Source: a virus
Reading direction: 5' to 3' (one strand)
DNA length: 23,775 nucleotides
Virus record (IMG/VR): IMGVR_UViG_3300042392_000667
Coordinates: 1 to 23,775 of that record
Position numbers and translations under genes: made by a program. This document shows positions 1,010 to 19,879 of the stretch, in pieces. The stretch's first letter is position 1; each line of letters starts with the position of its first letter. Below the pieces are notes generated by a model that did not search any database, had not been told where the DNA came from, and was given only the letters and a program-made list of their open reading frames with translations.

Positions 1010-1035
1010 CGCCCCTCCTGTGCCCCTGATTAGAA

Positions 1036-1071: not shown

Positions 1072-1425
1072 CTACCCGTTCAGAATGGATTCTACAATTG
1101 CATCCCAATTGTTGTCAAATCTGAGCGCCCTATCGTCAACGTAGGCCTTGGCCACGGGCTTGCCTGCCCCAACCCAGATCTCGTTGTATGGCACACCCCA
1201 GGTGTCCAAGTAGTAGCGCATTTCGTCAATTCTATCTGCTCTGTCTTCAAACTTTTCCCATGCTCGGGCAGAGTGAATGATGATCTTGTATCCGTTAGCA
1301 CGCAGCCTCTCCAAGCCCTCAATAACACCCCTTGCCGGCACGATTGTTCCAAACACTCGCACGGAGATTGTGTCGTCAAAGTCCACGCAAATGTTGCGTG
1401 CGCCCTCAAGGTCTGCGTTGATCAT
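1072..1425 (-). CDS. Small HAD-superfamily phosphatase, 117 aa
   Basis: Motif I is CVDFDDTI with nucleophile D15 and acid/base D17. Motif II is IIIHSAR with S52. The motif III Lys is probably K89 (GKPVAKAY), and motif IV is YVDDRA with D97/D98. All HAD catalytic elements are therefore present. At 117 residues it is a minimal, capless domain similar in size to phage polynucleotide-phosphatase or nucleotidase-like HADs; substrates could be 3'-phosphate DNA/RNA ends or nucleotides. It begins in an ATGA overlap with the exonuclease and has no clear Shine-Dalgarno sequence, so it is probably translated by coupling. A promoter and palindrome for the next gene lie within its last 40 bases. Confidence 0.85.
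   Translation of the reverse strand: MINADLEGARNICVDFDDTISVRVFGTIVPARGVIEGLERLRANGYKIIIHSARAWEKFEDRADRIDEMRYYLDTWGVPYNEIWVGAGKPVAKAYVDDRALRFDNNWDAIVESILNG
1089..1118 (-). promoter_or_regulatory. Sigma-70-like promoter upstream of the nuclease/ERF pair
   Basis: A perfect TTGACA (1113-1118), an 18-base spacer, and TAGAAT (1089-1094; 5 of 6 match to TATAAT) lie on the minus strand inside the 3' end of the HAD gene. A transcript would start near 1082 and pass through the hairpin at 1036-1065 before the nuclease start at 1009. Confidence 0.5.
1094..1112. promoter_or_regulatory. 19-bp palindrome filling the promoter spacer (candidate operator)
   Basis: ACAATTG-GGATG-CAATTGT is a perfect inverted repeat with 7-bp arms and a 5-base centre. 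It spans the spacer and touches the first base of the -10. It also encodes part of the HAD C-terminus. Geometry matches the palindrome at 2194-2212, though the arm sequences differ. Confidence 0.45.
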
Positions 1426-2193: not shown

Positions 2194-2212
2194 GGATTAT
2201 ACCACATAATCC
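2194..2212. promoter_or_regulatory. 19-bp palindrome over the -10 box (candidate operator)
   Basis: GGATTAT-GTGGT-ATAATCC on the minus strand is a perfect inverted repeat of 7-bp arms around 5 bases. The right arm includes the -10 hexamer. A dimeric repressor bound here would occlude polymerase. The promoter at 1089-1118 carries a palindrome of the same 7-5-7 geometry. Confidence 0.5.
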
Positions 2213-2225
2213 TACCCTCTGCCGA
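2196..2225 (-). promoter_or_regulatory. Sigma-70-like promoter with extended -10, before the nucleic-acid genes
   Basis: A TATAAT (2196-2201) preceded by TGG makes the extended -10 TGGTATAAT. An 18-base spacer upstream leads to TCGGCA (2220-2225), a 4 of 6 match to TTGACA; an extended -10 tolerates a weak -35. The predicted transcript starts near 2188-2190 and reads into the exonuclease, HAD, nuclease and ERF genes. It lies in the one clear non-coding gap between the structural and nucleic-acid modules. Confidence 0.7.
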
Positions 2226-5912: not shown

Positions 5913-6577
5913 TAGCCAAGCCTCCGGATCTTTCTGATTCTAGACATGAGGCGCTCAAAGCGCTGGCGTGCAATCGTGTAGTTCTGACCAATCATCGGCA
6001 CAGATACGTCGGTTGCGCCAGAGTTTACCTGCCACTGCTGGAACATCGTTCGGTCTGCCATGAGCTTGAAGAATGCCTCAGCCTGAACGAAGAATCGTAC
6101 AGCCTGCTCGGCGTTGACGTCAAGTGTGTCCACGGTCCAATCCCCGTACCCTACGACTCGTAGGTGAGAGGTGCTTGGGGCGATGCGCCCGGGCTGGAGG
6201 TAAACCGTTGAACCATGGATCTCCCAGCCGCTGTATGGCCCCCATCCGTTAGCTGGGTCAAGCGTGTCGTTAATGTCAAACCACTCTTTAATTGGGCTGG
6301 AGGTACTATCAATACGGTACTTCATGGAGTCGATGCGGATGACTGAATCCATGCCAGCTGGGAGTGCAATACTGATTGCCTGGAATGAGGTAAGAATCTC
6401 TGGGACCGCAACCGTTGACACAAGCTCGCGAGGGTATGCCCGAGAGATCTCAGGCAAGGCCAAGTTTACCAGGTCTTCTAGCTCGGCGCTGCTCCAGGTT
6501 CGGTCTACGCCGTCAGACGTGCCGGTATCCCGAAGGTCCCTTCTAATCTTCTGCATGAGTGTGTCAATAGCTGCCAT
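5912..6577 (-). CDS. Head-tail connector/adaptor protein, 221 aa
   Basis: It is the first gene after the capsid and comes immediately before the Dit-like gene, where head-completion adaptors usually lie. The N-terminus is helical and similar in style to gp6-type adaptors (IDTLMQKIRRDLRDTG, WSSAELEDLVNLALPEISRAYP). A beta-rich middle follows (GWEIHGSTVYLQPG, HLRVVGYGDW), then C-terminal helices with a strongly basic end (RFERLMSRIRKIRRLG). These adaptors attach beneath the portal ring. AAGGAG lies 6 bases before the ATG, and the stop is shared with the next start (TAATG). The family assignment is by context and fold impression. Confidence 0.7.
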   Translation of the reverse strand: MAAIDTLMQKIRRDLRDTGTSDGVDRTWSSAELEDLVNLALPEISRAYPRELVSTVAVPEILTSFQAISIALPAGMDSVIRIDSMKYRIDSTSSPIKEWFDINDTLDPANGWGPYSGWEIHGSTVYLQPGRIAPSTSHLRVVGYGDWTVDTLDVNAEQAVRFFVQAEAFFKLMADRTMFQQWQVNSGATDVSVPMIGQNYTIARQRFERLMSRIRKIRRLG

Positions 6578-6590
6578 TATTTCTCCTTAA

Positions 6591-6630
6591 GAGGACCCGG
6601 CCGGGTCATAATCCCGGCCGGGTAGTCCTC
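6591..6630 (-). terminator. Strong stem-loop between capsid and connector genes
   Basis: A 15-bp stem (GAGGAC plus CCGGCCGGG with its complement, interrupted by a 3-base bulge) closes on a 7-base loop (ATTATGA on the minus strand). It sits 10 bases past the capsid stop and just before the AAGGAG of the connector gene. There is no U-tract, so it is not a classical intrinsic terminator. It may lower downstream transcription, act with a factor, or protect the 3' end of a capsid mRNA. Confidence 0.65.
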
Positions 6631-18386: not shown

Positions 18387-19879
18387 TAATCAGAACCTCC
18401 AAAGTAAGTGAATACTGGGTTTTCAACGTACCCAGATCCATGCCTAATAGCATAGCGCACAGCTACGGCCAAAGCCATCACCGCGTCCTGCTCCAACTTT
18501 TTGTCGTCTAGCTTGTATGAAAGCAACTGACGACGTAATTGCATCCATACCCCTGTCCGGGGAAACTTGATCATCTTCTTATCCATTACAGCTTTTAGGT
18601 CCGAGAGCAGCTCAAGCTTCTTAGCCTTTGTTCCGCCGAAGTCGTATCCCCTTAACGGCTTGATCACGCTAAACTCTTGCTTGAACAGTTTACCTCCGAA
18701 TCCTGTCTCATCCACTACCGTCACGCATGTCGACTGTTGACTGTAGAGCAGATGTCCTTCTCTAACCATATTCACAATCGCTTGTATGGTTTGTTTTCCA
18801 CCTCTTGTCCTCGCTCGCACTCCAATTATACCATTTCTGTCGGTGCTGTCAAGTGTGATGGCCCAGGTACTATCACTAGAGATGCCAGGGTCGCAGCCCT
18901 GGATGTATCGGTGCTTGCCAGCTGGGAGCTGCTCGGGTGGCAGGGTGTCCACAAAACAGGCGTCTACCGAGGCGGAACTGAAGTATGAGTCCGATGCCTC
19001 AATGAAATACCCATCAATGTTCTGTGGGATGAGGTACTCCGCCTGTTGCCGAAGGATGGCATCAAATGTGTCAGTAGCTAGACCGTACCCAACGTTGTCC
19101 CTGGTTGATAGGCGGAAGCTAAAGAACTGTGGATCTCGGTCTGGGTTGGCGTCGTTGCCCATTTCCCAGAGGTCGGCGTAGTCGTTAATGCCCTCGGTTG
19201 GGGTGCCGATGAAGTGGAGCTGGCCACCAGTGGAGAGTCGACGAAGGTTCAGAACCTCTTGGTAGATCTGGATGAGGTGGGGCTCAAAGGCCGCCTCGTC
19301 AAAAGAGATGCCATTCATGTCCTTGCCGAGGAGGGCCTTAGCCTTATCCTGGGTTGTGCGGAAGTGAATGTTCGCTCCGCCCACAAGGGGGTGGAACTGT
19401 AGCCAGAGGTACTCGCCCCGATACTTCTTGGTGTGCTCCACTACCCTGCCAATCTCTGAGATTAGGGGGCAGCCCCGGCCTCTCTGTGCCGGGTGACCGC
19501 CTTCCAGAATCATAGCTACCTCACGGTGTACGAGTTCAGCAGTCTCCTGCTGGATACCAACGTGGTACCACTCGTACGGTGCCGTCTGCCACCGCATGGC
19601 ATCCTTGGATGTCCCGTCTGGTGGCTGAATGCCCAACTTGTAGAATGCGCTATGGAATACTGCTACTGCCATCCCCAGTGTCTTTCCTGCTCGGTTACCA
19701 GCAGAACACACAGTTGTGAGGTATTTAGGTCGCCAACCAGAGCCATCGCGAGCTGCAATCCCTGTAACCCAGCGCTCCTGGCCCGGGTGTAGATCAATCC
19801 CCAGCCACCTCTTAGCGAAGAAGACAGGATCGTGCCTGCCAGCTGCTAGGTCTCTAGCAGCTTCGCTTGTTACGTTCAA
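18386..19879 (-). CDS. terL: Terminase large subunit (packaging ATPase/nuclease), 497 aa
   Basis: This is the motor that cuts concatemeric DNA and drives it into the prohead through the portal. Visible motifs are Walker A GNRAGKT at 61-67, preceded by the HPGQ adenine-binding-type motif at 31-34; Walker B ISFDEAAF with D194/E195; and the coupling motif GTPTEG at 225-230. An RNase H-like nuclease domain follows, with acidic residues D330 (GCDPG), D390/E391 (VVDETG) and D466 (EQDAVMALA). The length is normal for the family. The start is TTG, overlapping the preceding stop as TTGA; no ATG or GTG lies between it and the conserved N-terminal region, so the TTG is needed. An AAGGG sequence lies about 10 bases upstream. 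The portal gene begins on its stop (TAATG). A consensus promoter is embedded in the nuclease-domain coding sequence. Confidence 0.97.
   Translation of the reverse strand: MNVTSEAARDLAAGRHDPVFFAKRWLGIDLHPGQERWVTGIAARDGSGWRPKYLTTVCSAGNRAGKTLGMAVAVFHSAFYKLGIQPPDGTSKDAMRWQTAPYEWYHVGIQQETAELVHREVAMILEGGHPAQRGRGCPLISEIGRVVEHTKKYRGEYLWLQFHPLVGGANIHFRTTQDKAKALLGKDMNGISFDEAAFEPHLIQIYQEVLNLRRLSTGGQLHFIGTPTEGINDYADLWEMGNDANPDRDPQFFSFRLSTRDNVGYGLATDTFDAILRQQAEYLIPQNIDGYFIEASDSYFSSASVDACFVDTLPPEQLPAGKHRYIQGCDPGISSDSTWAITLDSTDRNGIIGVRARTRGGKQTIQAIVNMVREGHLLYSQQSTCVTVVDETGFGGKLFKQEFSVIKPLRGYDFGGTKAKKLELLSDLKAVMDKKMIKFPRTGVWMQLRRQLLSYKLDDKKLEQDAVMALAVAVRYAIRHGSGYVENPVFTYFGGSD
18825..18852 (-). promoter_or_regulatory. 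Consensus sigma-70-like promoter inside terL
   Basis: On the minus strand, a perfect TTGACA (18847-18852) is followed by a 16-base spacer and a perfect TATAAT (18825-18830). The bases just before the -10 are TGG, making an extended -10 (TGGTATAAT). It points towards the portal and the rest of the structural genes, whose first start is about 440 bases downstream. The identical 9-base extended -10 occurs in the promoter at 2196-2225. Confidence 0.65.

Follow-up and report, generated by a model that had tools for sequence, protein, structure and literature searches.

The HAD-like gene of this virus ends in a near-consensus promoter whose spacer holds a perfect palindrome, and the locus raises the question of what is maintained there and how the genes that follow are controlled. 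The window, by which we mean the whole stretch of DNA that was analysed, is a 23,775-base virus record (IMG/VR IMGVR_UViG_3300042392_000667). Its minus strand carries all of the main genes, in the order terminase, portal, major head protein, RNase-H-like exonuclease, HAD-like protein, PD-(D/E)XK/Cas4-like nuclease, and Erf-like annealing protein. The HAD-like phosphatase gene (phrog_1238) lies at 1072-1425 and its translation contains VDFDDT, which we take to be a DxDxT-type motif. The exonuclease gene of the PD-(D/E)XK/Cas4-like type (314-1009; PF12705, phrog_1706, and phrog_1990), which is putatively under the control of the leader described below, is followed by the second gene of the operon, an Erf-like single-strand annealing protein (1-324; phrog_155) that is truncated by the window end; the full-length Erf-like gene of a relative matches the Pfam family ERF (PF04404). 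A search of cultured phages gave no match to the window DNA or to the nuclease protein, and no relative of the nuclease was found in the bacterial genomes searched with it.

The sequence-only reading had proposed that TTGACA-N18-TAGAAT in the end of the HAD gene is a promoter for the nuclease/Erf pair. The site is indeed present on the minus strand; it lies within the open reading frame 1425-1072, and the nuclease (1009-314) and the Erf-like gene (324-1) follow downstream. The sigma-70-like core spans 1089-1118, with the -35 hexamer at 1118-1113 and the -10 hexamer at 1094-1089, and it matches 11 of 12 hexamer positions with a spacer of 18, inside the range of 16 to 18 for a sigma-70-type promoter. 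The pattern TTGACA-N15-19-TANAAT occurs twice in the window and in none of 100 shuffles, and a looser scan of the window allowing 9 of 12 positions gave no excess (6 sites found versus 5.6 expected). Transcription would be expected to start about 6 to 10 nt past the -10 hexamer, at 1079-1083. As a separate observation, a full consensus extended promoter, TTGACA-N16-TATAAT with TG ahead of the -10 hexamer, lies inside the terminase gene at 18825-18852 on the minus strand, ahead of the portal gene.

The codons that underlie the hexamers were compared in 21 distinct sequences (nine clusters at 85% identity), the window included, out of 29 full-length ungapped HAD sequences; L030-L033, L034 (partial), and L035 were left out. 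F103 is TTT, D104 is GAC, and V111 is GTA in all 21, so that TTT and GAC supply the TTGAC of the -35 hexamer and GTA the TA of the -10 hexamer, while the Ser113 codon is always TCN and supplies its T. The codons between them vary. Only 9 of 111 testable HAD codons are fully frozen, and these include three of the four hexamer codons (hypergeometric P = 0.0015). Two sequences from the exonuclease search, L053 and L054, joined the set later, and both count against the promoter: 21 of the resulting 23 sequences share TTT-GAC and GTA although the encoded amino acids permit other codons, and both hexamers are lost in these two. An extended -10-like element (TGCTATACT) about 9 bp further downstream in L053/L054 is a candidate only; the promoter scan calls none there, and in L091 the scan likewise finds none at the nuclease junction.

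Relatives of the L030 nuclease turned up at 37 loci (L174-L210) in a wider search. The L030 nuclease shares 43% identity with that of the window and is preceded by a gene other than HAD. This gene, at about 4336-4990 of L030 between the HAD gene and the nuclease (GGILDDCGPSSVAAAASW...), presumably encodes a C39-type peptidase, judging by eye. All 26 distinct leaders of this sister clade (clade 2; L188 is not among them, having only 34 nt upstream) carry TTGAC(A/G)-N17-TAAGAT at the same junction, just before the nuclease. As a like promoter precedes the nuclease in both clades, the promoter at that position appears to be old, and its surroundings differ. In the sister clade (L174-L209, e.g., L174:2427-2503) the -10 hexamer overlaps the 5' arm of a 14-bp terminator-like hairpin with a U-rich tail, which may terminate upstream transcripts while the clade's own transcripts, starting inside the arm, would escape. 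The 17-nt spacer region of this clade was folded for 18 of the 26 leaders; a hairpin of 6 to 8 bp, with G-U pairs allowed, is present in 15 of these 18 (L174-L208), with differing arm sequences, and in 12 of the 18 the folding surpasses that of shuffles (p <= 0.05).

Frozen hexamer codons and a comparable promoter at the same operon position make the promoter well supported, to the extent that sequence comparison can do so, and point to selection on the hexamers. It is quite unlikely that there is no promoter and that the hexamers are kept solely by the protein sequence and the preferred codons. In favor of this reading, the protein is conserved over F-D-N-N-W, 70% of the Asp codons in the window are GAC, and L053/L054 survive without the hexamers. 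However, TTT (44% of its family) and GTA (24% of Val codons) are not preferred in the window, and yet they are fixed across all nine clusters. Moreover, the HAD lineage L030-L033, in which the nuclease is not directly next, lacks the key bases (TTTGAA and GCAAGA) and has a promoter at the nuclease junction instead.

The palindrome fares differently. A perfect 7-5-7 palindrome, ACAATTG-CATCC-CAATTGT, is present in the promoter spacer at 1094-1112 as had been described, and the second one, GGATTAT-ACCAC-ATAATCC at 2194-2212, belongs to the other promoter of the sequence-only reading (2194-2225, minus strand), which precedes the RNase-H-like exonuclease gene. Two promoter-like sites are thus each overlapped by a perfect 19-bp palindrome with this 7-5-7 geometry, and it had been suggested that the palindromes imply one or more dimeric regulators, with drift of the arms at synonymous sites as the observation that would speak against this. 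Comparison of the HAD 3' end shows such drift: the arms pair 7 of 7 in the window alone among the 23 HAD sequences (the 21 distinct full-length ones plus L053 and L054), the others retain two to six of the seven pairs, and already in the nearest relatives (L002, L005, and L006, with 97 to 99% protein identity) a synonymous change in an Asn codon gives ACAACTG and breaks the palindrome. The palindrome at 2194-2212 is lost in all 21 of the relatives listed, the closer of which still carry the TGTGGTATAAT element. The proposed search for other 7-5-7 palindromes at promoters found five perfect ones in the window, compared to 1.59 +/- 1.27 in 200 shuffles, and the remaining three (at 1608, 7206, and 12681) are all within genes. 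At least two occur in 49% of shuffles; they are not rare, and two near promoters are weak evidence. On this window-wide count a family of promoter palindromes was rejected. When the window spacer was recoded synonymously with amino acids and hexamers fixed, an inverted repeat this long arose with p = 0.025, but of the 15 distinct spacers of the window's clade (clade 1), 3 (the window, L021, and L027) surpass their recoded versions in folding at p <= 0.05 and 12 do not. An operator over the promoter core, bound by a phage or host repressor with a sister site at 2194-2212, is therefore very improbable; judged from the sequences compared, the spacer palindrome arose by chance from the codons used in this one phage.

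Beside the exonuclease gene there is another hairpin, GAAGGG-GACUU-CCCUUC at 2173-2189 on the minus strand, shortly past the -10 hexamer of that gene. In relatives the stem bases differ but remain paired (GCGGG/CCCGC and GCAGG/CCUGC), and the loop is GACUU or GAUUU. The likely true start of the exonuclease gene is the ATG at 2153, which is preceded by GGAGG.

The more informative feature, missed by the earlier reading, lies downstream of the promoter. A hairpin at 1036-1065 on the minus strand, CCCCCAGCCGG-GCGCCCCU-CCGGCUGGGGG, has an 11-bp stem and a C-rich loop (1054-1047); it begins about 24 bp downstream of the promoter in a leader of about 75 nt, and with transcription likely starting at about 1080 the whole hairpin would be inside the leader. 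All 31 nuclease relatives with at least 62% identity for which upstream sequence exists (L138 and L140, loci that begin inside the nuclease gene, are not among them) have the hairpin, as against 0 of 19 distant ones (24 to 27%). Comparison of 17 distinct leaders shows a perfect stem of 11 to 14 bp in all, in which 6 of the 11 inner pairs change on both sides (stem position 3, for example, is C-G, U-G, A-U, or G-C), whereas the loop (g)CGCCCCU and the two closing G-C pairs are invariant. In the ten leaders with an 8-nt loop, 100% of the cells are paired and five pairs show two-sided change. The covariation score of the hairpin is 0.384, compared to 0.098 +/- 0.033 for shuffled alignments, none of 500 of which reaches it, and slid versions give at most 0.055. 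The folding energy of the leader region is no better than that of shuffles (z = 0.02 and 0.42), because the region is very G+C-rich. On these comparative grounds we consider the leader hairpin well supported.

The leader appears to belong to the nuclease and not to the HAD gene. At the junction in L091 the HAD gene is missing, and the leader comes directly after the exonuclease gene, ahead of the nuclease; L030-L033 have the HAD gene without the leader hairpin, and the record of L030 (G006) has no leader match. One strong match per record was found in 12 of 14 records searched, and none in G006 and G010. Pattern scans returned 28 stretches, 27 of the leader family and one unrelated (L084), and another scan returned 30, of which L171 is unrelated. 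A second leader copy elsewhere in the phages was considered and rejected, the next matches being for the most part weak or antisense to this hairpin, and a short upstream frame, ATG AGG GGG CTA TGA, noticed by eye in L019 and L022, is not kept in other leaders. The leader model also matches weakly (16.7 bits, E = 0.015) at 6566-6626 on the minus strand, where gene 6577-5912 begins; that gene carries a hairpin of its own (GACCCGGCCGGGTC) ahead of the Shine-Dalgarno sequence. Rfam gave no match at the gathering score in the window, only subthreshold ones. Among the papers listed by a literature search there was no report of this leader element, which is no proof that none exists.

What the invariant loop may do is suggested by two G-rich boxes downstream of the stem. 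Box 1, GGGGC at 1022-1026 on the minus strand, is complementary to the loop and lies 7 to 12 nt past the stem; its GGGG is found in 17 of 17 leaders, and the box is absent from the sister clade. Box 2, found in a repeat search, is the Shine-Dalgarno region of the nuclease gene itself (GGAGGGGCG, 1010-1018, minus strand), which is complementary to the loop over 9 nt including the closing CC (duplex of -14.9 kcal/mol in the window); its G-run lies 16 to 23 nt past the stem, again in all 17. The loop duplex energies are -9.0 to -13.8 kcal/mol for box 1 and -10.5 to -14.9 kcal/mol for the Shine-Dalgarno sequence, compared to -2.4 to -10.6 kcal/mol for the same loop against 14 other genes of the window. 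Both sides of the loop:box pairing are nearly invariant in the 17 leaders, with only single G-U or lost end pairs, so this pairing yields no covariation proof of a pseudoknot. All 17 clade-1 leaders have both box 1 and the C-rich loop, and none of the 26 sister-clade leaders has either. In L030, a member of the sister clade, the loop is not complementary to the Shine-Dalgarno sequence (-5.4 kcal/mol), and some leaders of that clade have GGAGGGG without a complementary loop, which indicates that a G-rich Shine-Dalgarno sequence does not need the loop. Both the C-rich loop and box 1 are missing from that clade although its Shine-Dalgarno sequence is G-rich, which makes box 1 the partner with the better support.

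The model that we favor, and that is probably correct as a whole, combines a selected promoter, a chance palindrome, and a leader that controls nuclease/Erf translation by means of a pseudoknot. A sigma-70-type promoter in the last codons of HAD would start the mRNA of the Cas4-like nuclease and Erf operon, and its leader of about 75 nt would fold into the hairpin of 11 to 14 bp with the C-rich loop. Pairing of the loop with box 1 would give an H-type pseudoknot that ends a few nucleotides before the Shine-Dalgarno sequence and leaves it free; alternatively, the loop may pair with the Shine-Dalgarno sequence itself, which would be the closed state. As the two pairings are mutually exclusive, the level at which the nuclease is translated is most likely set by the leader, which may also act as a switch. 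The candidate pseudoknot would have a stem 1 of 11 to 14 bp, a stem 2 of 5 to 7 bp, a first loop of 1 to 2 nt, and a last loop of 7 to 12 nt, a geometry that we take to resemble the coronavirus IBV frameshift pseudoknot in a minimal form. The competition between the two boxes, the existence of two states, the effect on translation, and any trans-acting signal are what such an arrangement would predict.

Two other readings of the hairpin must be weighed. It is unlikely to be an intrinsic terminator or insulator for upstream transcripts with a loop kept for another reason. Its position after the HAD stop codon and the U-rich tail of the sister-clade hairpin at the same place (GGTCUUUU...) would fit such a role, but the clade-1 tails, such as CUACAGCA and UUCUAAUC, have no U-tract, and the hairpin is absent from the list of the terminator scan, on which grounds it was rejected as an intrinsic terminator. 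It also lies downstream of the promoter, where it would cut off its own operon, an invariant loop is not needed in a terminator, and in L091 a different gene precedes it. Rather unlikely, too, is a leader in which a translational repressor recognizes the loop and the G-boxes without any pseudoknot: an invariant loop on a changing stem is also typical of a protein-bound hairpin, but this would leave the complementarity of the loop to two nearby boxes unexplained.

The pseudoknot model has a parallel in phage T4, whose gp32 binds to a pseudoknot in the leader and acts as a translational repressor of its own gene (PMC535899 and PMC3014915). As in the gene 32 leader described there, a pseudoknot, here a candidate, would precede the ribosome-binding site of a phage DNA recombination/replication gene; Erf is a single-strand annealing protein and gene 32 encodes a single-strand binding protein. 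The 17 leaders differ in having none of the A+U-rich UUAAA/UAAA repeats between pseudoknot and start that PMC535899 gives for gene 32. Unlike in T4, the loop is complementary to the Shine-Dalgarno sequence and to a second box, the stem of 11 to 14 bp is G+C-rich, and the first gene of the operon is a nuclease. The preQ1, SAM-II, and SAM/SAH pseudoknot riboswitches are described as sharing with our prediction a single hairpin whose loop pairs with downstream leader or Shine-Dalgarno bases; the leader here differs from them in the lack of an Rfam match, a known ligand pocket, and a metabolic gene, and in its long G+C-rich stem. The standby-site pseudoknot of tisB also affects access of the ribosome to the start site, as our candidate might, but there (PMC7708055) the standby site is about 100 nt upstream of a sequestered start, whereas here everything lies within about 60 nt.

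A rather unlikely extension, drawn by analogy, is that this uncultured phage group has a two-state switch in which pairing with the decoy GGGGC box would be the on state and pairing with the Shine-Dalgarno sequence the off state, the choice being set by the annealing or nuclease protein of the operon or by unwinding, so that the recombination proteins may restrict how much of them is made, in the manner of T4 gp32 but with another RNA architecture. That the operon's own proteins would drive it in a gp32-like manner is speculative. The case shows a promoter maintained within the last codons of a gene through the freezing of single synonymous sites. If the leader model is true, the leader would add a second, unrelated phage case in which a covarying stem and a Shine-Dalgarno-complementary loop precede a recombination operon, and it would test the generality of such control.
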